Of a DNA stretch of 58,595 bases, positions 1-51,563 are shown in pieces. The stretch spans positions 1 through 58,595 of the IMG/VR virus record IMGVR_UViG_3300042691_004430. One strand, given 5' to 3'. The notes under the pieces are model-generated. The model searched no databases, was not told the origin of the DNA, and saw nothing but the letters and a program-made list of their open reading frames with translations. The translations under genes and the position numbers were made by a program. The stretch's first letter is position 1. Each line of letters opens with the position of its first letter. The stretch comes from a virus.

Positions 1-120
1 CAAATACTTTTAGATGCTTATGTCATACGTTGTTCTTTTTCTTTTCTTAGGAAATAGTTGTGCAATGCTTCTTGCGTTTCGTTGTCTATGCTCACAATAT
101 ATAACTACTTTTGTTTGTTG

Positions 121-654
121 TCAACGAATAATTGTATCTTTGGTATATTTTGACCAGTCGGTGAAAGTATCACGATTGGTTAAATCGCTTACAGAATGAA
201 CCCAAACGCCTGGGTTAGTAGAACGAAAATCACGATCGTCCAACTTAATGCAGGCGTTATAACCAAGTTGACGAATGTACGGAAGTTTAACACTGATCAT
301 ACTAATAAAGCGATCGTATTCGCTCCATCCTGCTTCAAGAACACCTTCGTGATATTTTAAGTCATAGTCTAGTGTAACCCAATAATCTTCTTTTAGCATA
401 AATGCAATAGGATCATGCCATGCCATATATTGATCATATTCAGGTTGAGTTTGGTCAATGCTAAAACTCATGTTAGCACCAAAGTAGATATGATCAACTT
501 TGTTTTTCTTGGCTAGTTTTAGAATTTCTTCTGCTGGTTGTAAACCAACAACAAACAGTGTTTTCATTCCGTGAGCCGAAGTATGTTCGACCTCAGTACC
601 AACAAAGAAGTTTGGCTGTTCGCTTTTTACACCAGTGCTATAATTTCGTTTCAT
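121..654 (-). CDS. Conserved hypothetical phage protein
   Basis: A 177-residue protein that I do not recognise. It is soluble, with no signal peptide or membrane segment, and has a mixed alpha/beta composition with a hydrophobic strand near residue 35 (TLFVVGLQPAEEIL) and many aromatic residues (YDQYMAWHD, DYWVTLDYD). The start overlaps the stop of the preceding small gene in an ATGA arrangement, which supports this start and cotranscription with the genes upstream. It is the last gene before the left window edge, and about 100 bases after it hold no gene I can support. No function is proposed. Confidence 0.7.
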   Translation of the reverse strand: MKRNYSTGVKSEQPNFFVGTEVEHTSAHGMKTLFVVGLQPAEEILKLAKKNKVDHIYFGANMSFSIDQTQPEYDQYMAWHDPIAFMLKEDYWVTLDYDLKYHEGVLEAGWSEYDRFISMISVKLPYIRQLGYNACIKLDDRDFRSTNPGVWVHSVSDLTNRDTFTDWSKYTKDTIIR

Positions 655-1026: not shown

Positions 1027-2484
1027 TTATACTTCCTCAAAAAGATTATTAAACATTGTACTAGCATTTACAGTTTTCTTACCAACATTAAGTCTAGTAC
1101 CAATTACTTGCATCCAATATCTGCTGTACTTTTCGATTGCTTCAAGACTTTTGGTGCGATCTTTTAAACTAAAAATTTCGTCAACCACATCTCTAAAAGT
1201 TATACGATCAAATCTGTCATCTATAAGCATATATGGATATATTCCGCTATCATACATTCTATTTGCTCGTTGTGTACTTTCAATATGCATCCAAACATTG
1301 TGACCCATTTGCAGTGCATACGAAAAACTATCCCAACTAGTTCTACCTTCTTTACCTATTTTATTTAGGTCGCCGGGCTTGTAAATACAAATATCTTTCA
1401 TTTGACAATGCATGGATATTGGTGAATCCTCAAATGCATCCACAATGCCATCCTGCACAATACCTTGACTAAACAGTCTTGTATCAGTGGAATACTTTTT
1501 ATCATCAGCACTAGGACTCATCATGTAACTCCACTTGCCACGGTCTTCAATTCTTATACTATGATAAACCTGTCCATTAGCAGTTGCAAGGAAAGGACTT
1601 GCACAGTCATATGTAATCATAAAGTTTGGATTATGATACTTACGAACAGCACGTTGAATGTCAGTTAACAGCACTGCCCATTCGAGTTTGCTTGTGCCAA
1701 GGAAGTGCATAACATCGTGCATACCTGTTTCTAGCAAGCCATCGTGTATCATTGCAACAATACGACGAAGTATCAAGTGTACATCGCACATGTTCTGTCC
1801 ACCCATAGCCCAACCATTAAAGTGAGTCTCTGGATATTGTTTTGGATCACAGTAGCCTTTGAATTCTTCGTACCACTCATCTGCTTCTTGATGATTGCCA
1901 CCTTGAAGAACGTTTAGTACTTTGAAGTTACCGCGGCGATTTGCCATGTAATATTTTGCATTGATATGAGTTGCATCAACTGCATCTTGATATGTTTTAA
2001 TACCTGATGCAGCACTGGCCTTTGGATCACGGAAAGTCCACGTTGGAATATCCAGCATCATGCCGTAGTCCATGTATTCTTCCATCCAGTTTACAACTAG
2101 TTCACGCTTCTTTTGTGCCTTAGGACAGTTTGGATCTGTCCAGTCACCTTCCCACAATCCTTTTGCAATTTGAAAACCACCCGAGTCGCCCAGCAACCAA
2201 CTGTTGTTCCTATCACGGTTACGTAGCATATCTTCTTTTTCACTGAACTTATTAACGTCAAGTTCGGCATGACCTGCACTATAGAGCGCCCATTTGTAAT
2301 GGAACGCTCCTTTGTTTGAGTTTAAGAAATTTAACGCTTCTACTTCACCAATACCTGCAGGAACACGATTAAGATCTACATATTCGCTGTATCGTTGTTT
2401 ACCTATGAATGTAGCATAAAAGCCACTGATACTAGGCAAAAACACTGCATAATCATTTTGTGCCTCGGTTAAATTGCTATTCAT
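1027..2484 (-). CDS. dpdA: DpdA-like DNA-guanine transglycosylase (TGT fold)
   Basis: A 485-residue protein with the landmarks of the tRNA-guanine transglycosylase barrel in order: GDSGGFQ at about 99-105 (Asp100 matches the TGT general base), LQGG at 193-196, WAMGGQ near 225-230, FLGTS near 261, and YDCASP with Asp293 at the position of the TGT nucleophile. It is longer than bacterial Tgt (about 375 aa), lacks the clear CxCxxC zinc motif, and resembles phage and genomic-island DpdA proteins, which exchange guanine in DNA for a 7-deazaguanine such as preQ0. A QueD-like gene lies about 48 kb away in the same window. Inferred role: modification of phage DNA to resist restriction. QueC and QueE are not seen here. 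Confidence 0.8.
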   Translation of the reverse strand: MNSNLTEAQNDYAVFLPSISGFYATFIGKQRYSEYVDLNRVPAGIGEVEALNFLNSNKGAFHYKWALYSAGHAELDVNKFSEKEDMLRNRDRNNSWLLGDSGGFQIAKGLWEGDWTDPNCPKAQKKRELVVNWMEEYMDYGMMLDIPTWTFRDPKASAASGIKTYQDAVDATHINAKYYMANRRGNFKVLNVLQGGNHQEADEWYEEFKGYCDPKQYPETHFNGWAMGGQNMCDVHLILRRIVAMIHDGLLETGMHDVMHFLGTSKLEWAVLLTDIQRAVRKYHNPNFMITYDCASPFLATANGQVYHSIRIEDRGKWSYMMSPSADDKKYSTDTRLFSQGIVQDGIVDAFEDSPISMHCQMKDICIYKPGDLNKIGKEGRTSWDSFSYALQMGHNVWMHIESTQRANRMYDSGIYPYMLIDDRFDRITFRDVVDEIFSLKDRTKSLEAIEKYSRYWMQVIGTRLNVGKKTVNASTMFNNLFEEV

Positions 2485-2870: not shown

Positions 2871-3042
2871 GTTTTATTCCCCATTTAATTTTTAACCAAA
2901 TTCTTTCAAACGCATAATGAACCGAAGTCAAAATAATATGTATTGCAATAGCATCTGCAATACCAGTCCACAATGCAGTAATTAATAACGCAATTAGTCT
3001 GTATAATATTGTTCTAACTAAGGTTCGTGTATGAGTTTCCAT
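2857..3042 (-). CDS. DUF2061-like small membrane protein
   Basis: A 61-residue protein with two hydrophobic segments (about 12-28 and 31-43) separated by a short polar turn and followed by a basic-aromatic tail (HYAFERIWLKIKWGI). The R-T-I-x-Y-R start, the TALWTG turn and the ERIW ending match the DUF2061 family of short inner-membrane proteins seen in bacteria and marine phages. Function is unknown. It shares bases with the genes on both sides, directly after the sliding clamp. Confidence 0.6.
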   Translation of the reverse strand: METHTRTLVRTILYRLIALLITALWTGIADAIAIHIILTSVHYAFERIWLKIKWGIKHGTV

Positions 3043-3782
3043 TATTTTTGTTGTGCTGGAAGAATATACTCGTACTTGGCTAGTCCGCTGTCTACTGTAA
3101 TTTTCATTGCACCTTGATCAGTGATACTTAGTTTTTTGTCGCCGTCGAGATGCAGAATTGCCAGAGTCTTGTCAATTGGCCAAGCCCACGTGTGTTTCAG
3201 TGTTCCTGTTACACTGTGCTGGAAAGTAAAACTACCAGCGTGTGTATTTAGATCACCAAAGTAGAAGTTCAAATTTCCGTTTTCAGTTTTAACTTGGAAT
3301 ACAGTTTCTTCGCTGTGAGCACCAGCCATCAGTTTCATACGGGCAATTGCAGCCATAGATGGTTCAATTTCGATGTCCCAAGATGATCCTTTAAATTTTA
3401 CTGATTTGAGTTTTTCTTCGATAATTGCTCGGTTCATAAAGCGATAATCATTCTGGAAGTCACCGCCAGCATTTTTAAAGTGAATCTGTGTAGGAATAGT
3501 CTCTCCATTGCGCTCTTCTTGTTTAATAACAATTGTAGCCTTTTCTTTGTATTCCGGATTCTTCAAGTGGTAAGCAAGTTTGCCAAGATCTGGCATACCA
3601 AATACGCCAGTAAACTCGGCAACTGGCTTGTGTGTTGTGCCTGTTAAAATAACAGATCTATCTTCTGCCATGGACTCAATTGTAGTAGCAGATTCTGCTG
3701 TCACTTTAAGTGTAGCAATAAAGCCTAGTGAATGTGTATGCGATACGATGTCTTGTAAAATGTCTTTCATATTTTTCTCCAA
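3042..3782 (-). CDS. 45: Sliding clamp, T4 gp45-like
   Basis: A 246-residue protein matching marine T4-like gp45: the N-terminal half runs through GVFGMPDLGKLAYHL and ends near FMNRAIIEEKL, and the second clamp domain begins near WDIEIEPSMAAIARM. The C-terminus (AKYEYILPAQQK) fits a clamp beta strand. In T4, gp45 is a trimeric ring that tethers gp43 to DNA and is also the activator for late transcription. A sigma70-like promoter with a 17-bp spacer precedes it and the RBS GGAG lies just before the ATG, so early expression is likely. Polymerase gp43 follows upstream in the same block and gp44 lies near 28.7 kb. Confidence 0.88.
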   Translation of the reverse strand: MEKNMKDILQDIVSHTHSLGFIATLKVTAESATTIESMAEDRSVILTGTTHKPVAEFTGVFGMPDLGKLAYHLKNPEYKEKATIVIKQEERNGETIPTQIHFKNAGGDFQNDYRFMNRAIIEEKLKSVKFKGSSWDIEIEPSMAAIARMKLMAGAHSEETVFQVKTENGNLNFYFGDLNTHAGSFTFQHSVTGTLKHTWAWPIDKTLAILHLDGDKKLSITDQGAMKITVDSGLAKYEYILPAQQK

Positions 3783-3793
3783 TGATTGTTTTT

Positions 3794-3822
3794 ATTGTAT
3801 AGTATAAGCCTTTGTAAGTCAA
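3794..3822 (-). promoter_or_regulatory. Sigma70-like promoter upstream of gp45
   Basis: On the minus strand TTGACT (3817-3822) and TACAAT (3794-3799) are separated by exactly 17 bases. The -35 box overlaps the end of the UDP-sugar dehydrogenase gene. The start codon of the clamp gene lies about 12 bases beyond the -10 box. It fits an early promoter read by host RNA polymerase. Confidence 0.7.
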
Positions 3823-4577
3823 CTCTTTTTTCTAATAGAATTGTTAGATTCAACTGCTGCTTCTAGTGTATTTAGATTTATGTTTGCATTTGCTGCTGTT
3901 TTTAGAAGTGCTTGAGTGTCTTTAGGTAAACACATTCCGCCCCAACCTCTTGTCTCTTTTTCTATAAATGTATGGCTTTCACCTATACGACTGTCAACAC
4001 CGACTCCCCAACGCACACAGTCATAGTTTAATCCTAGTGTTTCGCAAAAATTGTACATTTCGTTAAAGAAACTACACTTGGTAGCAAGAAATGCATTTCT
4101 AAAATACTTGATTGCAATAGCATCTTGTGGTGTACAAAGAGAAATTTTTATTTCTGGATAGGTATAGGAATAAAAATCTCTCCAATAATCGGTGTTTCCG
4201 CCTGCTAAAAAGATGTGTTTTAGATTTCTCAAATCCTCATCTGCTGCACTAGCCCGTAAAAATTCAGGACTAAATGTAACAGAATGTTCTGGAAAATCTC
4301 TCTCGATGTCTTTCCACCCATCTAAGGATATTGTACTTTTAACTAGTATAGGAATGTGTTTAGGAAGTGTACCGATAACATGATGTACAATACTCATATC
4401 GCAACTTCCGTCATCAGTTGAAGGAGTAGGAACACAAACAATTGCAGCATGTAGATTTTTAATATCTTCGACACGAGTATTGTTAAAATTAGGATCTACT
4501 ATAGTAATTTCGTGATATAAATTAAATGCATTGTAATAGGCTTTACCTACAAAGCCGTAACCAAGTAATGCTATCAT
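3819..4577 (-). CDS. UDP-glucose/GDP-mannose dehydrogenase family protein
   Basis: A 252-residue NAD-dependent nucleotide-sugar dehydrogenase. It has an N-terminal Rossmann motif (ALLGYGFVGKAY, 3-14), the CVPTPS strand near 49, TFSPEFLRASAA near 101-112, and a central helical domain with GWGGMCLPKDT, where the Cys matches the catalytic thiol of UDP-glucose and GDP-mannose 6-dehydrogenases. It is much shorter than the usual 390-450 residues and ends soon after the central domain, so the C-terminal UDP-sugar binding domain is missing or supplied elsewhere. It overlaps the PMM-like phosphatase gene by an ATGA junction, forming a three-gene sugar cluster. Confidence 0.78.
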   Translation of the reverse strand: MIALLGYGFVGKAYYNAFNLYHEITIVDPNFNNTRVEDIKNLHAAIVCVPTPSTDDGSCDMSIVHHVIGTLPKHIPILVKSTISLDGWKDIERDFPEHSVTFSPEFLRASAADEDLRNLKHIFLAGGNTDYWRDFYSYTYPEIKISLCTPQDAIAIKYFRNAFLATKCSFFNEMYNFCETLGLNYDCVRWGVGVDSRIGESHTFIEKETRGWGGMCLPKDTQALLKTAANANINLNTLEAAVESNNSIRKKS

Positions 4578-5296
4578 GCTGCTATCCTTGCTTCTTGATA
4601 AAATTGTAATGTTTCAAAAGTAAATCTCCAGTCAGTTACTTCGATACCAACGCCTCTATTGCGTTTTTTAATCTCTTGTGCTAGTGGATAATCGTTTCCG
4701 TCTTCGGACATCTTATCTCCAAAAAAGTAAAGTCTATCCCCGCTTTTAAAATGTTCTAGTATTTGACTTTTATCTTTGCCTTTTTCGTAAATGTCAATGC
4801 CAGTTTCGCCACCAATACGTGCTTCAAGGTCTTTGAAGGTTGAATTAAATCCATCAACTAGTTTTTTTCTTTCCTGATCTAATTCGTCAAATTCAACATA
4901 TAGACGACGTTCTTTTAACGTAGCATTTCTTCCTACAACACTAAAGTTGACTGCACCACCACGTTCTTCGATATGGTTACCTGTGCGTAAAACAAACTTA
5001 CTTTGTTTTAATTTGCCTTCTAACCAGTGACGTGCGAGATCTGGTAATTGCCAAGTTGATTGTTTTACAACATTGCCTTTGACTCTTACTTCATTGCCAC
5101 TGCAATTAAAAATAATACTAACAGCGTTTACAATACGTTCGTTGAGTTGCTCAACGGTTTTGCTATAATCGCTACCAGTTACTAGATATACAGAATTTTG
5201 TTGACAAAACAACAAAAAGAAATCAGCAAACTCAGGATTTATCTTTCCTCTACTAGGAGTAAGGGTTCCGTCTACATCAAAGATAAATTTATTCAT
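4574..5296 (-). CDS. HAD phosphatase/eukaryotic-type phosphomannomutase-like
   Basis: A 240-residue HAD-superfamily protein with FDVDGTLTPSR at 5-15 (catalytic aspartates in DVDGT), a VTGSDY strand near 40, and the late motif FFGDKMSEDGNDYPLA. GGETGIDIYEKGKDK and AVNFSVVGRNA match the eukaryotic-type phosphomannomutase family more than generic Cof phosphatases. Likely activity: hexose phosphate isomerisation or dephosphorylation. Its stop and start overlap both neighbours in the sugar cluster, so coordinated production of a nucleotide sugar is likely. The actual sugar is unknown. Confidence 0.75.
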   Translation of the reverse strand: MNKFIFDVDGTLTPSRGKINPEFADFFLLFCQQNSVYLVTGSDYSKTVEQLNERIVNAVSIIFNCSGNEVRVKGNVVKQSTWQLPDLARHWLEGKLKQSKFVLRTGNHIEERGGAVNFSVVGRNATLKERRLYVEFDELDQERKKLVDGFNSTFKDLEARIGGETGIDIYEKGKDKSQILEHFKSGDRLYFFGDKMSEDGNDYPLAQEIKKRNRGVGIEVTDWRFTFETLQFYQEARIAA

Positions 5297-5724
5297 ATGC
5301 TTTTAGATTCCTTTTCTGCGTCAACTACTCTTCGACGTAAATCGCTACTGCTAAATCTGTGATCACGTTTGTTAAAATGTAACTCAATGCCACGTTTACG
5401 ACATACGTCTTTGCCAGAAAAATCCTTTTCGCGATATTCTTCACCTAGAAATCGTATGTCAATTTCAAACAGTTCTAGTATATCCACTACATCTTGTTCT
5501 GTTTGATATGGAACAATTTCGTCTATAAACTTAACAGCATTTAGTTGAGCATAGCGTTCTACCAATGTTTGAACTGGTTTGTTTTTTTCTGTAGGGCGGT
5601 CTATTGTGGGATCTGTTTGCAAGCCTACAATTAAATAATCGCAGTTTGCTTTGGCTTCTCGTAACATACCAATGTGTCCGGCATGTAACAGATCAAAGGT
5701 GCTAAAAGTTATTCCTACTTTCAT
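5293..5724 (-). CDS. Cytidylyltransferase-family nucleotidyltransferase (TagD-like)
   Basis: A 143-residue protein with the signatures of the glycerol-3-phosphate cytidylyltransferase superfamily: FSTFDLLHAGHIGML near 8-22 (HxGH nucleotide-binding motif), RPTEKNKPV near 43 and RFSSSDLRRR near 122, which corresponds to the RxSSTxxR motif. The size fits TagD/RfaE-type enzymes that activate a polyol or sugar phosphate with CTP or ATP. It is the first gene of the sugar trio and follows gp43 directly, so it is cotranscribed with replication genes. Confidence 0.8.
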   Translation of the reverse strand: MKVGITFSTFDLLHAGHIGMLREAKANCDYLIVGLQTDPTIDRPTEKNKPVQTLVERYAQLNAVKFIDEIVPYQTEQDVVDILELFEIDIRFLGEEYREKDFSGKDVCRKRGIELHFNKRDHRFSSSDLRRRVVDAEKESKSI

Positions 5725-5727
5725 GTA

Positions 5728-8394
5728 TTAACTCCAATCAAAAAGTGAATTAAACGTAGTATTTTGTTTAGTGCTTTCTAAATCATAATCTAGAACGCCG
5801 ATAAGATTGTCAAGTTTGTTATCAATGATAACTTCTTCCATACTGTTATCATCAAATGGCAATTCTTTAAACCACTGCGGAAGTCTTAATTCGTCTACTG
5901 GATATGCTACACTAGTATACCCAAGTGGATTTTGTCTTACCTTACAAACAATAACTTTCATGCCGTCCACAATCTCTTGACTGTATCTGTCGCCGTTCAT
6001 GCGCTTTAGTGTATTCCAGTTAATGCTTGCACGAACGTGACCTGGCATATTTGCTTTTCCAAGTTTTGCTTCTTCTCGCTGATATGCTTGAATATTATTG
6101 GCACGTTTTGGCGAGCCTTTTTCATATCCAGGACGTTCTTTAAATGCACGTCTAAAGTTTGTAATAGCCTCGAGTATGTCACTTTCCGGTTTCTTTAACA
6201 ACACCATAGTAAGCAATTCGCTGAGAAACTCTTGCATAAACACAGGAGTATCACTGCGCTTTAGATCAAGACCCATTGCTTTAATCTTACCAGGTTTGCC
6301 GTCGACGTCTTTGCGTTTGTTTTCTTCATCATATACAAGAACTGCATAACGTTTCTTGGTAATAAACAATCCAGTTTCGCCTACAATTTCACGTCCTGCT
6401 TTGATTACTTCTGCACGGTTCTTTGGGCAATGAAACGCACTGCCCATAAATTCGCCGAAGGTTTTATTTGCTTCTTCGGAAACTTGATCATACAATGTAA
6501 TAACATTTTCTTTACTCCATGGTATGTGTCCGTCGTTGATGTCTTTTTGCAGTGTAGAGAATGCACTAAAGTATACAGAGTCAGTATCACCGTAAATTAT
6601 TGCCTTACCGACATGATCGTATTCGCCAGTGATAATTTCATTTACTTTACTAGCCATGTGCTTGGCAATCTGTCTACCAGTTAGTGTAGTGCTTTGTCCA
6701 ATGCGTTTGTCGAAAAACCTGCAACCTGGATTAAGAATAGCACCATACAAACTGTTAAGGTTAATCTTCTTAACCAACTGACGCTTGTCCCAGAACGAAA
6801 TTTCAGTTTCGTTTCCTGCATCCTTTGCTTTTTTAAGCATTGCCTGTAGTTCTTTACGTTCTTTGTACCAACGTGCCAGTAGTCCGGGAATAACAGATTC
6901 GAACTCATGTGTAAAGATAGTACCGTTAGCACTGATCATCCAAGGCATGTTGCTGTCAAACATTAGTTTATAAAGTTCAGCACCGCTTAACACGTCAGTA
7001 CGACCATCTTCCCAATCAACTGTGATGGTCTTGTCTCTGCGTTGTTCCATTACCCAAGTGTATTCAAATGTGCCAAACAGGCCTTCCCACGCTGCGGCAA
7101 ATGATTTTTTATGCAGTGTCATCTGCTCGTGGATATATTGATCAGTGTATTCTGGGCGTAACTGTCCAACAATACTTTCTGGAGCCATGTTTAATGCTCT
7201 AATTACTGAAGGATACAGACTGTTCAAGTCCATACTTCCAACCCACTGATGCAATCCTTTTTTGGGATATGCAACATATGCACCTGCTGCTTGTGTGTTG
7301 CCGCCGTGGTCACGTCTATTCGGAACCTGCATACCTCTACGGTGTGCTTCGTTGATAATTGCTTGTTCTGTAACAGCAACCGCACCCATAATAGTTTGCA
7401 ACAGAACAGTGTTGTCGTGAGCAATCTCATTTGCTAGATCAATAAAGCGTAGTTTTTTGTCTAGTTTATCAAGTAGTGCAACGTCCTGTCTGTTATATTC
7501 TATAAAGGTTCTAAAGTCGTTATTGTAAAGTTGATCTAGTGTGCCTTCGTATTGTGTCTTGCGTTCATCTAGTTCGTACTCGCCAATTGCATCAAGTCTA
7601 TAACTATGACGTTCTTCGTAAGTGTACTTACGATACAATTCTAGAGAGTCAATATGTACACGACCTACAAAGTCAAATGTCTCAGAAGTCTTGCCGTACT
7701 TTTCGTATTCGCGCTTCTTGGGATATTGATCCCATAAGCAAAAACGTCTAGTATCGTTTTTACTCAACACTCTAGCAACTCTATTGACAGTGTACGGAAC
7801 GTCATATCCTTCACTGTTCCAACCACTTAGAATATCTGCATCTTGTATCAAGTCAAGAAATGTATCCAACATGTCTGCTTCTTTTTCAAAAAGAATACAG
7901 TTCTCGCCCCACTCTACACAATGTTCACGGGCTTGCTCCATTGTTAGTGTCTTTGGTGGAACTGCTAGTGTTATAAGTGCATCCACCCACTGTAAACAAA
8001 CAGTGATTGCAGTAATTGGCATAAACGGATCGCTAGTAGGAGCAAATCCACGTTCTGGATCAAAGTCGGTCTCGATATCCCAAAATGCTACGTTTAGTTT
8101 AGGAGCATCTTGATTTTCGTAGTTTTCACTTAGACACTGAAAGATAGGATTAATATCGCTTTCAAACAGATTCTTATTTTTATTAATTGCTAATTCTTTT
8201 CTGTAGTCTTTGGTATTTTTACAAACAATGCGACTTAGCGGATCGCCATATACACTTTTATACTTTCCTTTAGGATCTTCGTAATAGAAAGTATACTTTA
8301 CTGGATACTCTTGTTGTATTCGTTTTCCGTCTTTACGTTCAATAACTCTAATAATATCAGAGTCTCTGTCAAACATTGCGTCGACATATGGCAT
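5728..8394 (-). CDS. 43: DNA polymerase, family B, T4 gp43-like
   Basis: An 888-residue family B polymerase close to the size of T4 gp43 (898). The proofreading exonuclease is shown by VAFWDIETD near 102-110 (Exo I), by SGWNSEGYDVPY (Exo II) and by the FIEYNRQDVALL motif (Exo III). The polymerase domain has SMDLNSLYPSVI (Pol A), KKINLNSLYGA (Pol B) and YGDTDSVY (Pol C), so all catalytic aspartates are present. It is uninterrupted, with no intein or intron. It replicates the phage genome together with gp45 and gp44. Confidence 0.95.
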   Translation of the reverse strand: MPYVDAMFDRDSDIIRVIERKDGKRIQQEYPVKYTFYYEDPKGKYKSVYGDPLSRIVCKNTKDYRKELAINKNKNLFESDINPIFQCLSENYENQDAPKLNVAFWDIETDFDPERGFAPTSDPFMPITAITVCLQWVDALITLAVPPKTLTMEQAREHCVEWGENCILFEKEADMLDTFLDLIQDADILSGWNSEGYDVPYTVNRVARVLSKNDTRRFCLWDQYPKKREYEKYGKTSETFDFVGRVHIDSLELYRKYTYEERHSYRLDAIGEYELDERKTQYEGTLDQLYNNDFRTFIEYNRQDVALLDKLDKKLRFIDLANEIAHDNTVLLQTIMGAVAVTEQAIINEAHRRGMQVPNRRDHGGNTQAAGAYVAYPKKGLHQWVGSMDLNSLYPSVIRALNMAPESIVGQLRPEYTDQYIHEQMTLHKKSFAAAWEGLFGTFEYTWVMEQRRDKTITVDWEDGRTDVLSGAELYKLMFDSNMPWMISANGTIFTHEFESVIPGLLARWYKERKELQAMLKKAKDAGNETEISFWDKRQLVKKINLNSLYGAILNPGCRFFDKRIGQSTTLTGRQIAKHMASKVNEIITGEYDHVGKAIIYGDTDSVYFSAFSTLQKDINDGHIPWSKENVITLYDQVSEEANKTFGEFMGSAFHCPKNRAEVIKAGREIVGETGLFITKKRYAVLVYDEENKRKDVDGKPGKIKAMGLDLKRSDTPVFMQEFLSELLTMVLLKKPESDILEAITNFRRAFKERPGYEKGSPKRANNIQAYQREEAKLGKANMPGHVRASINWNTLKRMNGDRYSQEIVDGMKVIVCKVRQNPLGYTSVAYPVDELRLPQWFKELPFDDNSMEEVIIDNKLDNLIGVLDYDLESTKQNTTFNSLFDWS

Positions 8395-8436
8395 TCATTT
8401 CTCCTTGTTGCTTCTTGGCCAACTAACCATCTACTT

Positions 8437-8450
8437 GCTCTTAAGTGAGC
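8437..8450 (-). promoter_or_regulatory. Small hairpin in the gp43 leader
   Basis: GCTC and GAGC pair around a six-base loop about 45 bases upstream of the gp43 start, in a 67-base gene-free gap. T4 gp43 represses its own translation through a leader hairpin, so a comparable role is possible, but this hairpin is short and lies farther from the RBS than in T4. Confidence 0.2.
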
Positions 8451-8461
8451 GACTCTATTCA

Positions 8462-8695
8462 TTACTTATTGTGTTTTAACATGTACAGTGTAATTTTAGG
8501 ATCATCTACTACTAGTAAATCGCTTGGGTATTTCCTATCAGGCCATGATCGTCCTACTGCTACAACATTAATCATTTTAGGATTAACTTTTTTAACTACT
8601 GCTATTTTAAGCCTGCTATGGTCGGGGTACACCACAGTGTCCCCGACATTAATGCTGTTTCCTAAAATATCTTTATGTATTATTTCCTCAGTCAT
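8462..8695 (-). CDS. Small SH3-like/hypothetical protein
   Basis: A 77-residue protein starting MTEEIIHKDILGN; the start overlaps the stop of the DsbA-like gene (ATGACTGA), which I preferred to a Met nine codons upstream. The INVGDTVVYPDHSRLKIAVVKKV segment has the look of a small SH3-like beta barrel of the kind common in T4-like phages (KOW-like spacing of Gly and Val). No specific function can be assigned. Confidence 0.6.
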   Translation of the reverse strand: MTEEIIHKDILGNSINVGDTVVYPDHSRLKIAVVKKVNPKMINVVAVGRSWPDRKYPSDLLVVDDPKITLYMLKHNK

Positions 8696-32272: not shown

Positions 32273-34168
32273 TTACTTATGATCATTGTCAACCGATAGA
32301 TTTCCATCTGATACAGTGCAACGCCAATAACTTGCTTTACGGTTCCAATGATATGCCTTATGATAAAAGGTTCTGTTATCAACAGGTTCTTTGTCCGCAT
32401 GATCAATAACTAAATCATTGGAACGTATTCCTAGCATACTTTCTGTTAAGTCTGCGTCTATATCATTGAGAATTATTGGATACTGCGCTGTATTGTTTTT
32501 GCACATTAGTATGTTTAAGAATACAGATGGAAGTGCTGGTAACGATGGGTAATACTGCCGCATAAAAGCAACAAGATCATCAACTAACTTACGTGTGTTC
32601 TTGTGTAACACAACACTGGAAGCACCTTTGTATTCCCAATAGATATCGTCTTCACCTAAAACCTTGCGACCCCAAAAACCTTGACTTTCGAATGTGTTTT
32701 TTAAATGAGAAAGTGTTTCTTGATATTCACTATGTAAAATAGTATCGGGATTCTGCTTAATAAACTCCAATATATTTTCAAATACATCAGTTTCTTTGCA
32801 GCCAGTTTCTTTACAGATGTATTTTGTTAGATAATGTCCCCAACCATAATAATACATTAGGATAGAGATCCAACTAAACATATGCCCAGCAAGCATGGTT
32901 TCATAATCTACAGTTCTTGTGCTGCAAACAGCGTCAGTGTATTCAACAATATAGTCTTTTAAGTCCTTGGTACTTAGATAATATGTATCAAGAGGAACAG
33001 TTTTAGTTTTTATGCCCCAGCGTTGTTGATATTTAGGATCTCCCATTGTGGCATTATTGGTAATAACCAGTGGATGTATCATTAAGAAACTATCCTGCCC
33101 TAGGTCGATTAACTTTTGTATGCCTGTTTTAAGAGATTCGTAAGTTTCTTCAGGCATTGGCCATATAAGTTCGCTGTACGTTGGAATGTTTTCTTCTTTA
33201 TAACGTTCTAAGTAATGCTTTACTTCGTTTTCTTTTATATTAAAACGTTCACTGGCTTCAAGAGTAGGGTCGTTAAAACTTTGCATAGCAAACGTAACAC
33301 CTTTGAATATGTCAACGCCGTTTGCTTTATTCATCATTGCTATTTCAAAGTTGCGATCGACATTGTTTTTAGCCCAAGTAGCATCCCACCAACGTGGATA
33401 ACCGTACTTCTTTTTAGTGTCAATAACATATTGTGTTATTTCAACGTCTCTTTCTAGTAATCCCCAATTGCTATCGCATACACTGACATATTCTATTCTA
33501 TTGCGACCCATCCAGTCAATTTCTGCTTTGACACGATTTATATCAAACAGTGTTAGTTTATTCCAGTAACCGTCGCCGATATCACAGAACGCACAATGAT
33601 AAGGACAGCCTCTTAGTGTTTCAAATGTGACTTGCCACATAGTATCTTCAGGATAATTGGCCATAATAGGTTCATAAAACCCTTCTAGTATAGGACTTGG
33701 TATGTCTGATATATCTAGAACTCTAGCAGCCATTTTTGGCATGTGAGTGCGAGTTTGCACATGAGGAATGTCGTTGTAGTTGTCCTCTCTTGCTAATATT
33801 TCTTTAAAGGCACGTTCTCCTTCTCCGTGAACTGCTAGATCAAACATAGGATATCGGTCAAAAAACTCAGGATCACGTTTGTGAATTTGTGGTCCGCCTA
33901 CAACAATCTTACAATTGGGCCATAATTTTTTAATTTCACGTGCCAGTGTTTGATTATATTCCCAATTCCATACGTAACTACTCATAGCAACCATCGAAGG
34001 ATTGTCCATAGTTTTTACATAATCAGTAGGAGGTATTTTTTCAATAAGTGTGTCTTTGAGATTCCAGTTTTCATTGCGAGCGTATAGCCATTGATAAGCA
34101 ATTGCCAATGGTAAAAACTTATTAGGTCCGTAAGCATCAACAACTTGTACTAGATAAATGTTTTTCAT
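32273..34168 (-). CDS. B12-binding radical SAM enzyme
   Basis: A 631-residue class B radical SAM methyltransferase-type protein. The N-terminal cobalamin-binding-like domain runs through CKIVVGGPQIHKRDPEFFD and LAVHGEGERAFKEIL. The radical SAM core begins with TLRGCPYHCAFCDIGDGYW, the CxxxCxxC motif for the 4Fe-4S cluster, near 188-200. A large C-terminal region of about 250 residues is unassigned. The family often methylates unactivated carbon or rearranges substrates; the substrate here is unknown. The gene is coupled by a 4-base overlap to a DnaE-like fragment gene. Confidence 0.85.
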   Translation of the reverse strand: MKNIYLVQVVDAYGPNKFLPLAIAYQWLYARNENWNLKDTLIEKIPPTDYVKTMDNPSMVAMSSYVWNWEYNQTLAREIKKLWPNCKIVVGGPQIHKRDPEFFDRYPMFDLAVHGEGERAFKEILAREDNYNDIPHVQTRTHMPKMAARVLDISDIPSPILEGFYEPIMANYPEDTMWQVTFETLRGCPYHCAFCDIGDGYWNKLTLFDINRVKAEIDWMGRNRIEYVSVCDSNWGLLERDVEITQYVIDTKKKYGYPRWWDATWAKNNVDRNFEIAMMNKANGVDIFKGVTFAMQSFNDPTLEASERFNIKENEVKHYLERYKEENIPTYSELIWPMPEETYESLKTGIQKLIDLGQDSFLMIHPLVITNNATMGDPKYQQRWGIKTKTVPLDTYYLSTKDLKDYIVEYTDAVCSTRTVDYETMLAGHMFSWISILMYYYGWGHYLTKYICKETGCKETDVFENILEFIKQNPDTILHSEYQETLSHLKNTFESQGFWGRKVLGEDDIYWEYKGASSVVLHKNTRKLVDDLVAFMRQYYPSLPALPSVFLNILMCKNNTAQYPIILNDIDADLTESMLGIRSNDLVIDHADKEPVDNRTFYHKAYHWNRKASYWRCTVSDGNLSVDNDHK

Positions 34169-48663: not shown

Positions 48664-48672
48664 TATTTATTT
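48664..48672 (-). promoter_or_regulatory. Late-type promoter element
   Basis: Minus-strand AAATAAATA, five bases upstream of the ATG at 48659, over the last codons of uvdE. It resembles the late element but is less exact than the CGATAAATA sites. Confidence 0.4.
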
Positions 48673-49683
48673 TTTAGACTGTTCAAACAACTCAATAGAG
48701 GCAAGATTTTTGCACTTTGCCTCTACCATAATGTCTGCCCACGTCCAATGACTCAATGCCCAATCATTACATGCTGTATTCCAACAATAATCACTGTGTG
48801 CTCTTAGTTTGGCTTTTTTGTATCCACTTTCGAGCAGTGTTGCCATGTCTGGTCGTACACTTGTATCAAAATTCTGTAATACATCTTCACGGCTAATGCT
48901 ATAATGCATAGCAGGACGTACACCGCGCCAACTATCAACAATGCGTTCAATACGACTGTCATCGGGCTCGATGTATTCACCTGTCTTGACCCAATGGTGA
49001 TGAATGTCCAGCACCAATGCTACATGATCAGCAAGTTCTAGGCTTGCGTCGAGTCCCCAGGAGTTTTCGTCGTTTTCGATAGTAATACAGTTTCTTGCCT
49101 CTGGAGACAGTCTTGGAAGTACGTCGATGATACCGGCTGGACCTTTTCTACCGGAGATGTGGACGTTACACTTGAAGTCTTGCCAACTCTTACCGTAGCC
49201 CATCCACCTGATGAGATTCGCATGATATTCAAACTCCTCAATACTACGTTCTACAATTTCCGGATTCTCACTGGCCAACACAGTAAACTGACCAGGATGC
49301 ATACTGACTCTTACATCCAATGCTCTAGCAGTTTCGCCAACCATTCCGTAGTGTTTTTCGCAGTATGCAACTACGTCTGGCTTGCCCCAAAAATAACTCC
49401 AACTGGCCTCAGTAGCACAAGGAAGTTGATTACTACCCAGTCGCACCATTCTAAGTTCAGGAGCCAAACTGCCTACATATTCCACTAGCCGTTTTGCTGC
49501 GTCAGCGTTATGTTCCATGATGTCCCAAAGACGTTGTTCAGCAACATCACGAGTTTGTCTGTTGAGCCATGCAACAGTTGTGCATTTTTCTGTTAAAGGA
49601 CGTTGTAATTCTTCAAGCAATTTAGGCTTGAGTGTTTGATCCTCATGAAGATATTTACAAGCAAATCCTATACGTTTGTGCAT
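48667..49683 (-). CDS. uvsE: UV damage endonuclease (UvdE/UvsE family)
   Basis: A 338-residue TIM-barrel endonuclease starting MHKRIGFACKYLHEDQ; the ATG overlaps the previous stop. Metal-binding segments are visible: VSMHPGQFTVLASENPEIVE, CNVHISGRKG, CITIENDENSWGLDASLELA, ALVLDIHHHWVKTGEYIEPD, and AKLRAHSDYCWN. UvdE nicks DNA next to UV photoproducts and abasic sites, starting repair. Useful for a sunlit marine phage. Confidence 0.92.
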   Translation of the reverse strand: MHKRIGFACKYLHEDQTLKPKLLEELQRPLTEKCTTVAWLNRQTRDVAEQRLWDIMEHNADAAKRLVEYVGSLAPELRMVRLGSNQLPCATEASWSYFWGKPDVVAYCEKHYGMVGETARALDVRVSMHPGQFTVLASENPEIVERSIEEFEYHANLIRWMGYGKSWQDFKCNVHISGRKGPAGIIDVLPRLSPEARNCITIENDENSWGLDASLELADHVALVLDIHHHWVKTGEYIEPDDSRIERIVDSWRGVRPAMHYSISREDVLQNFDTSVRPDMATLLESGYKKAKLRAHSDYCWNTACNDWALSHWTWADIMVEAKCKNLASIELFEQSKK

Positions 49684-49850
49684 TCTAGTTCCTCTCGCCA
49701 AACAATAATGTTGGCAGTATACTCTGTTACATTCCAATTGTTAGGATCGCCAAATTTTGAACGAGTTCTAATCAATACTTCATCTTTGGTCTCGCCGTAC
49801 TCGTAGCCGAGGAACGTAAGACCTGCATATATCATGTATGTTCTTATCAT
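49668..49850 (-). CDS. Small hypothetical protein, 60 aa
   Basis: A 60-residue protein starting MIRTYMIYAGLTFLGYEYGE and ending NIIVWREELECTNV. An alternative Met at 49952 would add 34 residues that overlap the glycosyltransferase gene; I chose the shorter form because a sigma70-like promoter lies between the two. That promoter leaves only a few bases of leader, so the start stays uncertain. Function unknown. Confidence 0.5.
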   Translation of the reverse strand: MIRTYMIYAGLTFLGYEYGETKDEVLIRTRSKFGDPNNWNVTEYTANIIVWREELECTNV

Positions 49851-49885: not shown

Positions 49886-50706
49886 TACCAATTTGATCTA
49901 GGCCAGTTATCAACGCAATCAGGTATGTTTGGTTCTCCGTGAAATACTGCAATATTTGTATTTTGTGAAATATTAGGAGTTCCGGATTTTGTAAAATTAC
50001 GTTTACCGTTTACAAACCCTAATTCTTTACGACCGCGCATTTCCCATTTATAACTTTGTATCCAATCGTCCGGCCAAAACACATGGTCTGTAATAGATTT
50101 AAACATCCAGTCTTGATCACCTTGATATCTTGCAACATTTCTTTGTGTATTTTGTTTGAATTCTTGATAAGCCGCGTTGTAATGTCCTATTTTAAATCTA
50201 AAAACACTACTGTTCATTCTGTCCCAGTTAGGACGTATTTGTCTATTAAAGTCTCTTATAATTACAAATGACTTTTCTGAACGATAAGCAAACAAATTAT
50301 CAATGTTTCTAAAAACAATCAAGTCTAAATCTAAAAACAATGCTGTACCGTGTATGCCCAATTCATTGCTCAAAAACCAAGGCTTATACCACCAGCCACT
50401 AACTGGCAACACGGGCAACGGCATTGTTTTAATATGACTATCTATACCTTTGGAATTTTCAGTATAACATACAAATTCGTAGTCTATTGTAAGATTACGT
50501 TTAACCATGTTGTAAAGTTTGTTTACGTATTCAGGTCCGTATTTGTTACCCCATTTTAAACAAACCACATAGTTCTTGTTTGTAGATTGTTTGTATGCTT
50601 CGAGATAGCCTCTTACATAATCGGTTCGCTCAACAGTAGAAAGGCCCTGTTTTTCTAGGGCCTTTCTTGCTTTTCTTTCACTTTTGGATTCAGTCCACTG
50701 TTTCAT
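49882..50706 (-). CDS. Glycosyltransferase, GT-A-like with DxD
   Basis: A 274-residue protein starting MKQWTESKSERKARKALEKQ, the ATG lying in the last codons of the queD-like gene. The first strand is NYVVCLKWGNKYGPEYVNKL, then YEFVCYTEN, WWYKPWFLS and GTALFLDLDLIVFRNIDNLF with a DLDLIVF metal/nucleotide-sugar motif near 120-125. This is the pattern of GT-A fold transferases of the fringe/GT8-like kind. Acceptor unknown: DNA, LPS or virion are possible. The first 30 residues contain a strong hairpin at the DNA level, so a later start cannot be excluded. Confidence 0.75.
   Translation of the reverse strand: MKQWTESKSERKARKALEKQGLSTVERTDYVRGYLEAYKQSTNKNYVVCLKWGNKYGPEYVNKLYNMVKRNLTIDYEFVCYTENSKGIDSHIKTMPLPVLPVSGWWYKPWFLSNELGIHGTALFLDLDLIVFRNIDNLFAYRSEKSFVIIRDFNRQIRPNWDRMNSSVFRFKIGHYNAAYQEFKQNTQRNVARYQGDQDWMFKSITDHVFWPDDWIQSYKWEMRGRKELGFVNGKRNFTKSGTPNISQNTNIAVFHGEPNIPDCVDNWPRSNWY
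50638..50667 (-). terminator. Strong hairpin after queD-like gene, possible attenuator
   Basis: Arms AGAAAGGCCCT and AGGGCCTTTCT are perfectly complementary over 11 bases around an eight-base loop. It sits 20 bases past the queD-like stop and inside the first codons of the glycosyltransferase. A clear T-run is missing on the minus strand, so it is not a textbook terminator; it could be a partial terminator or translational block. Confidence 0.4.
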
Positions 50707-51178
50707 CAAACGACATCTTCTGTGTTGTGTAGGGTGTATAGATTGCACTGTTAGCACCGTGCTCTGCACATTCTACACTTTCACACCAGCAGCGTCCGTT
50801 GGTTTTTGCACGAACTAGTTCGTCAGCAAACTTCCACGCATGATATGCAAAACGTTCTGCACCTACACCGTCAAACACACGGATCTCTGCTAGATCCAAT
50901 GCTTCAAGTTCACGGAACTTCTCAATATGAGGATCGTCGACATCCAGTGCTACTTTATGATCAAAGTTGTCTTCAAGCCATGCTTTAAGCGGTTTAAGTC
51001 CACCAAAGTCTACTGCCCAGTTTTTGTTGTCTAGTTCACTGCATCCAAATGTAAATTTAAACTGTAAACTATAACCATGCAGCAAATGGCAATGTGAATG
51101 ATCTGCGTTAGGTTGACGGAACACTGCACTCAAACCAATGTTGTGTCCGTATGTTTTTGTACTATAATATTTTCCCAT
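50690..51178 (-). CDS. queD: QueD-like 6-carboxytetrahydropterin synthase family protein
   Basis: A 162-residue T-fold protein starting MGKYYSTKTYGHNIGLSAVF, with GAGGA upstream; the longer frame lacks an RBS. DHSHCHLLHGYSLQFKFTFG, DFGGLKPLKAWLEDNFDHKV and AEHGANSAIY correspond to the conserved regions of QueD/PTPS. The Cys, the Asp-His of NFDHKV and the Glu are kept, but the usual zinc ligands AAH and HGH read AVF and HGY, a variant I recall from marine phages. QueD makes carboxytetrahydropterin in the preQ0 route used by DpdA. Confidence 0.78.
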   Translation of the reverse strand: MGKYYSTKTYGHNIGLSAVFRQPNADHSHCHLLHGYSLQFKFTFGCSELDNKNWAVDFGGLKPLKAWLEDNFDHKVALDVDDPHIEKFRELEALDLAEIRVFDGVGAERFAYHAWKFADELVRAKTNGRCWCESVECAEHGANSAIYTPYTTQKMSFDETVD

Positions 51179-51245
51179 AATTTTTCCTCGTTGGGTGAGG
51201 GGGCGGAATGTTTTAAGTGGGTCGATCCCTATATAGTCCACTGTA

Positions 51246-51563
51246 TTACTTATCATCGACTGATGTTAGTTGTTGAGAATCTAAAATAGCTCTACGCATG
51301 TCTTTGACTTCTTGAATAACTATTTCGATTTCATTAGTTGACTTGGTTAACACTTTTGCAAGATATATGATGTTTTTCATTGTCCACCACCACCAAGTAA
51401 TTGCAGTTACAATGTATAAACTCAATGCAATATAAAATAGAATCTGAAGTTCAACAACATCTAATCTATAAAATAATAGCAAAATTGCAGTCGAAACTAT
51501 AGGAAGCATTACGGCTGCACGATTCCACCAAATAATTTCTTTTTCAATTTTTTCTAAATCCAT
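51246..51563 (-). CDS. Small membrane protein with coiled-coil tail
   Basis: A 105-residue protein with two membrane segments (about 17-32 and 40-58, LFYIALSLYIVTAITWWWWT) and a C-terminal helix (STNEIEIVIQEVKDMRRAIL). Size and layout permit a holin, but its position among metabolic genes, not next to the endolysin, gives no support. Function unknown. Confidence 0.6.
   Translation of the reverse strand: MDLEKIEKEIIWWNRAAVMLPIVSTAILLLFYRLDVVELQILFYIALSLYIVTAITWWWWTMKNIIYLAKVLTKSTNEIEIVIQEVKDMRRAILDSQQLTSVDDK

Follow-up and report, generated by a model that had tools for sequence, protein, structure and literature searches.

A probable DpdA-kind transglycosylase without a zinc motif in a freshwater phage, and a candidate QueC-less route to a 7-deazaguanine-type DNA base

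The stretch of DNA analysed here, called the window, comprises the 58,595 nucleotides of the viral record IMGVR_UViG_3300042691_004430 (positions 1 to 58,595), from a freshwater phage. Near its left end lies the gene of a DpdA-like DNA guanine transglycosylase candidate (1027-2484, minus strand), a 485-aa protein of TGT fold without the zinc motif, referred to below as dpdA. It starts with ATG and its reading frame is intact; chance alone would give only about 2e-9 open runs as long as this in the whole window. All of the neighbouring genes described here lie on the minus strand as well. Just upstream stands the gene of a sliding-clamp-like protein (phrog_12062; 3042-3782), which holds this place in 24 of 24 environmental loci. 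The same clamp-dpdA neighbourhood recurs in phages PA5oct and 2.275.O, and the 2.275.O clamp homologue also matches phrog_223, a DNA polymerase processivity factor. At 3819-5724 there are three genes of sugar-nucleotide type (UDP-sugar dehydrogenase, PMM/HAD and cytidylyltransferase-like), neighbours in 20-21 of the 24 loci, which may feed a glycosyltransferase or serve surface sugars, their role in the pathway being uncertain. On the other side, a small ORF named cl10 (811-1026; conserved in 18 of 24 loci) abuts dpdA. It is followed by cl3 (121-654; 177 aa; conserved in all 24), whose homologue adjoins DpdA2 in Acidovorax phage ACP17, and by the truncated 5' end of cl4 (1-95), a QueD-fold paralogue assigned to phrog_17812.

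Beyond dpdA, only about 1 kb of sequence is left in the window. Contigs L003 and L004, which come from the same phage, contain the whole of cl4. L003 runs on into genes for a glycosyltransferase, an epimerase and, last of all, a phosphoribosyltransferase (PRTase), breaking off 5.8 kb beyond dpdA; a search with an exact 29-mer to extend L003 found no further contig of this phage. L003 and L004 differ from the window at 11 and 10 positions. Ten of these differences fall within window positions 1-163, among them a stop in the truncated start of cl4, and at most one lies elsewhere; the left-edge differences are either strain variation or an assembly-edge error. Two other genes of the window's minus strand deserve mention in their own right. 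One, at 32273-34168, encodes a B12-binding radical SAM protein similar to C-methyltransferases of the KedN5 type (its NCBIfam match, E 7.7e-63, falls short of the cut-off), an unusual cargo for a phage; the other, at 48667-49737, encodes a UV damage endonuclease resembling UvdE (Pfam E 8.6e-37).

Relatives of the 485-aa protein are encoded in at least 111 IMG/VR stretches, 80 of which were kept (64-100% identity among those 80). Distant relatives occur in isolates, namely PA5oct and its kin, Sinorhizobium phage Phosso and Vibrio phage 2.275.O; a search of 84,980 genomes of bacteria and archaea found no close relative. Searches with the single sequence against Pfam, PHROGs, NCBIfam, PADLOC and the PDB sequences gave nothing useful, so the protein is recognised through broader alignments and its fold. 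The AlphaFold2 model, made with 29 relatives in the alignment, has a mean pLDDT of 81 and a pTM of 0.86. Foldseek ranks TGTs first for it (E 5.6e-8), and VIA-align superposes it on bacterial, archaeal and eukaryotic TGTs with Z of about 19 over about 305 residues, so that all three methods give it the TGT TIM barrel expected of a DpdA. The best match among viral models is A0A2I7SB39 (596 aa, the same size as the 2.275.O homologue); lower down stand the Motura TGT and the nt-1 protein R9TGF0 (E 6.9e-10), which we take to be DpdA2.

The residues agree with the fold. As the sequence-only reading had stated, the TGT aspartates are kept: Asp100 (GDSGGFQ) and Asp293 (TYDCASPF) are invariant across the 29 relatives, among which mean column identity is 71% and every catalytic and pocket residue is unchanged. 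The segment Asp100-Ser-Gly-Gly-Phe-Gln, Asp145, Gly195, His260, Leu262, Gly263 and Asp293 are invariant in 16 diverse members, and Asp100, Asp145 and Asp293 align in all 22 sequences, E. coli TGT and DpdA2 included. From what is known of TGTs, these three are the acid/base, the guanine-binding residue and the nucleophile, respectively; the catalytic pair and the base-pocket aspartate of a DpdA are thus all present. The loss of the CxCxxC zinc motif, also noticed earlier, is borne out, the positions reading SPIS in the window clade and the downstream His395 being kept, so that the zinc site of a tRNA TGT is not there as a whole. The proteins of GR7B, Peetri, PhiXhv, NCTB and Motura, by contrast, retain CxCPxC. 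One relative of dpdA, at G020:C1:46675-48124, is split across two reading frames, by a frameshift or a sequencing error.

A profile comparison of hhalign type with the DpdA2 proteins of nt-1, K567, pf16 and Moby gives Prob 98 and E 1.8e-13, and the corresponding value for E. coli TGT is E 6.8e-7; as judged by sequence profile, the closest characterised relative is nt-1 DpdA2. In the tree, the window family joins the jumbo phages PA5oct, Phosso and 2.275.O in one clade (support 100/99) and the DpdA2 rows form their own (100/100), which places the protein outside DpdA2, the root and deeper order being unsure because of long branches. The "DpdA size" ascribed to the protein holds in part: its 485 aa come closer to nt-1 DpdA2 (464 aa) than to the DpdA of phage 9g, which has 317 aa.

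The second gene on which the sequence-only reading relied, a QueD-like gene at 50.7-51.2 kb, is real. Its 188-aa product (50690-51256, minus strand) matches PF01242 (E 1e-13) and phrog_2389 (E 3.9e-41), and reaches 33.1 bits against the NCBIfam QueD equivalog TIGR03367, whose cut-off is 89.25. It resembles QueD (6-carboxytetrahydropterin synthase) in its PTPS domain and, aligned to the E. coli enzyme, keeps the catalytic Cys, the Asp-His pair and the anchoring Glu. It is unlike QueD in the zinc site, where HGH has become HGY with loss of the first His and only one of three zinc His is aligned; the sole QueD-type gene of Motura carries HGY too. By its sequence the protein is a relative of the pathway enzymes. 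Its family occurs in at least 598 stretches and is very common in aquatic phages, so the gene alone is weak evidence for the pathway. It gains weight from close relatives that carry it adjoining or near QueE in the dpdA cluster, as in contigs G018 and G021. Among 18 contigs chosen for the QueD-like gene, 6 also have dpdA, the rest being mostly short.

QueC, QueE and FolE are indeed lacking from the whole window, and the earlier suggestion that the host or the rest of the genome supplies them stands in part. Relatives place FolE about 7 kb downstream of dpdA, usually followed by QueE, so these two are phage-encoded there rather than left to the host. Among the 16 largest related contigs, which overlap in ancestry and are therefore not independent counts, 14 have FolE, 13 a strong QueE match and 5 a QueD-like gene; FolE is missing from two, namely G001, which is from the window's own phage and breaks off 3.2 kb beyond dpdA, and G010, a fragment of 68 kb. 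FolE is found in nine of nine isolates that have a homologue or DpdA2, and QueE likewise in nine of nine isolates; of 13 genomes, 12 have a gene of QueD type. Related contigs and isolates thus both link dpdA to deazaguanine synthesis, and the order in G018 is clamp, DpdA, cl3, cl4, GT, epimerase, FolE, PRTase, QueD, QueE. As L003 stops before the expected FolE site, FolE and QueE of the window's own phage are predicted from these relatives.

The same fuller genomes that yielded folE and queE did not yield queC. It was not found in the complete genomes of PA5oct and Phosso, nor in G012, G018 and G021; the contigs searched measure 251, 228 and 343 kb without it, and the 330-kb contig G003 has weak partial matches only. 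Such matches, in G002, G003, G006, G007, G011, G013 and G014, extend over no more than one quarter to two fifths of the model and score 19-25 bits, short of the equivalog cut-off, and for that reason were not counted as QueC. The phages 2.275.O, GR7B, PhiXhv, Peetri, Motura, NCTB and nt-1 do encode QueC, and in X1 an N-type ATP pyrophosphatase adjoins FolE. The window-clade member 2.275.O encodes QueF and a YhhQ-type transporter in addition to QueC, so substrate use may differ within the clade. With QueC missing, the phage-encoded pathway would end at 7-carboxy-7-deazaguanine (CDG), and the preQ0, preQ1 or archaeosine-like base proposed by the sequence-only reading is no longer the best guess.

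The gene cl4 is conserved in all 24 loci, encodes 155 aa and is without an assigned function in PHROGs. The structure predicted for it (pLDDT 85) adopts the QueD fold, matching E. coli QueD with Z 11.6 and an rmsd of 2.5 over 110 residues. It shares with QueD the fold and the three zinc His positions, but has lost the catalytic Cys and the Asp-His pair. The gene lies within or beside clusters of FolE, QueD and QueE in ACP17, BUCT-ZZ01, X1, RHph_I1_18 and Cellulophaga phage phiST, beside FolE in Phosso and near FolE in Bakedbeans. In this last Vibrio phage (L308:6215-7366), the cl4 domain belongs to a 383-aa fusion protein whose N-terminal region is unrelated. DpdL has reportedly been proposed by Cui and colleagues (2023) as a CDG decarboxylase, with the base dDG described, and the identity of cl4 with DpdL is offered as a lead only.

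In PA5oct, Phosso and the four largest environmental relatives, cl4 is usually accompanied by a GT4-type glycosyltransferase and a purine phosphoribosyltransferase. The glycosyltransferase adjoins or is near cl4 in the window clade, PA5oct, Phosso, ACP17, X1 and BUCT-ZZ01; it matches Pfam Glycos_transf_1 and relatives, above cut-off in X1 and BUCT-ZZ01 and weakly elsewhere. By tblastn against 50,697 GenBank phage records, cl4 occurs in 26 and the glycosyltransferase in 13, all 13 with cl4, although the relatedness of these records reduces them to about four independent phage groups. Both were sought without success in whole 2.275.O, GR7B and NCTB and in the scanned parts of Motura and nt-1, and cl4 stands without this glycosyltransferase in the stretches read of phiST and RHph_I1_18. 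Since ACP17, X1 and BUCT-ZZ01 use DpdA2, the pair goes with two DpdA subfamilies. The phosphoribosyltransferase is HGPRT-like and is shared by PA5oct, BUCT-ZZ01 and the window phage; recycling of guanine released in base exchange would explain its presence. We know of no description of cl4 coupled with a GT4-type glycosyltransferase and a PRTase. The Synechococcus phage BUCT-ZZ01 has two glycosyltransferase-like genes near DpdA2 (L306:4385-5728 and 7376-8542), one of them 72% identical to the enzyme of the window phage, which suggests transfer between phage groups.

Taken together, the 485-aa protein is very probably a phage DNA 7-deazaguanine transglycosylase of the DpdA kind. The modification of DNA by 7-deazaguanine, as the sequence-only reading proposed, is well supported by the predicted fold, the catalytic residues, the profile similarity to DpdA2, the position beside the clamp and the linkage to FolE and QueE. 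That the enzyme instead modifies tRNA, raising queuosine or a related base to aid translation, would suit its TGT fold and residues and the tRNA genes within the window. This is quite improbable given that the zinc motif common to tRNA TGTs is gone, that the closest characterised profile is that of DpdA2, which acts on phage DNA, that dpdA keeps its place close to a clamp-like gene, as it does in phage 9g, and that QueF appears in none of the 16 related contigs. Still more remote is the idea of a degenerate or inactive TGT relic; the lost zinc site and the failure of every family library to recognise the protein would fit it, whereas the intact reading frame, the conserved synteny and the invariant catalytic and pocket residues of 29 relatives at 71% mean column identity speak against it.

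The nature of the inserted base is a closer question. Phage FolE, QueD and QueE could be completed by a host QueC, with DpdA inserting preQ0 and with cl4 and the glycosyltransferase serving other functions. Since P. aeruginosa and the majority of hosts encode QueC, preQ0 may yet be the substrate; within the clade, 2.275.O carries QueC and QueF, and nt-1 DpdA2 yields dPreQ0 (PMC6884629). We nevertheless consider host completion a possibility of the lesser sort, as FolE and QueE are kept and QueC is missing in six large or complete clade genomes (2.275.O not among them, and G003 with its weak partial matches), and as cl4 tracks the QueC-less set, not being found in 2.275.O, GR7B, NCTB or the scanned Motura and nt-1 parts. 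A base derived from CDG, either 7-deazaguanine or 7-carboxy-7-deazaguanine, is therefore somewhat favoured over one derived from preQ0.

A DNA guanine transglycosylase of the DpdA kind is the best overall explanation, with a probability of roughly 0.8, and a CDG-based route is proposed for it; from the observed gene content, fold, residues and co-occurrence we infer all of the chemical steps. GTP would be converted to CDG by FolE, the QueD-like enzyme and QueE. As QueC is missing, the base would be CDG itself or a cl4 product of it, most simply 7-deazaguanine formed by decarboxylation. DpdA would then exchange guanine in DNA for this CDG-type base, with Asp293 as the nucleophile and Asp100 as the acid/base; the fixed place of the gene next to a clamp-like gene, seen also in 9g, suggests that the enzyme works at the replication fork or behind it, probably the latter. 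The guanine set free may be salvaged by the purine phosphoribosyltransferase, the GT4-type glycosyltransferase may decorate the base further, and the end effect would be resistance to host restriction enzymes. Glycosylation of the base is a tentative part of this scheme, as a glycosyltransferase in this position may instead act on LPS or on a different base. It is likewise doubtful, though conceivable, that these phages make an undescribed hypermodified base, a glycosylated 7-deazaguanine, for which cl4 would process CDG, the zinc-less DpdA or DpdA2 would insert it, the GT4-type enzyme would glycosylate it and the PRTase would recycle guanine.

If this reading holds, a zinc-less transglycosylase subfamily, unseen by Pfam, PHROGs and NCBIfam and common in aquatic phages, would be added to the phage DNA-modification toolbox. 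It would also mean that QueC-less deazaguanine islands have taken up the same additional enzymes in combination with either of two DpdA subfamilies that are very divergent. The cultivable P. aeruginosa jumbo phages PA5oct, MIJ3 and Paride have the same core set; text searches of papers on these three phages gave no DNA-modification or restriction test of their DNA.

Among known systems, the DpdA2 enzymes of nt-1, K567, pf16, Moby and ACP17 share with the window family the TGT fold, a similar size, the company of FolE, QueD and QueE, and the motifs Asp-SGG-Q, FDE/LD-IP, H-x-L-G and I-S-x-D. They differ in forming a separate clade, and neither family retrieves the other by tblastn. Comparative genomics together with nucleoside analysis established nt-1 DpdA2 as an enzyme of phage 7-deazaguanine modification, and nt-1 DNA contains dPreQ0 and related bases (PMC6884629); in nt-1, DpdA2 is accompanied by QueC. 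For the DpdA of phage 9g the same reaction is proposed, and its gene adjoins a sliding clamp and FolE, yet the 485-aa protein has no detectable sequence similarity to it. Phage 9g (dG+) has Gat-QueC, whereas the window clade lacks QueC except in 2.275.O. Profiles of the window clade and of DpdA2 find no transglycosylase near the queC of Campylobacter phage CPt10, so a tie to the DpdA3 group is not established. There is also a likeness with the QueC-less 7-deazaguanine phages, which also have FolE, QueD, QueE and DpdA without QueC, and the cl4 homologue of phiST is a further point in common with them.
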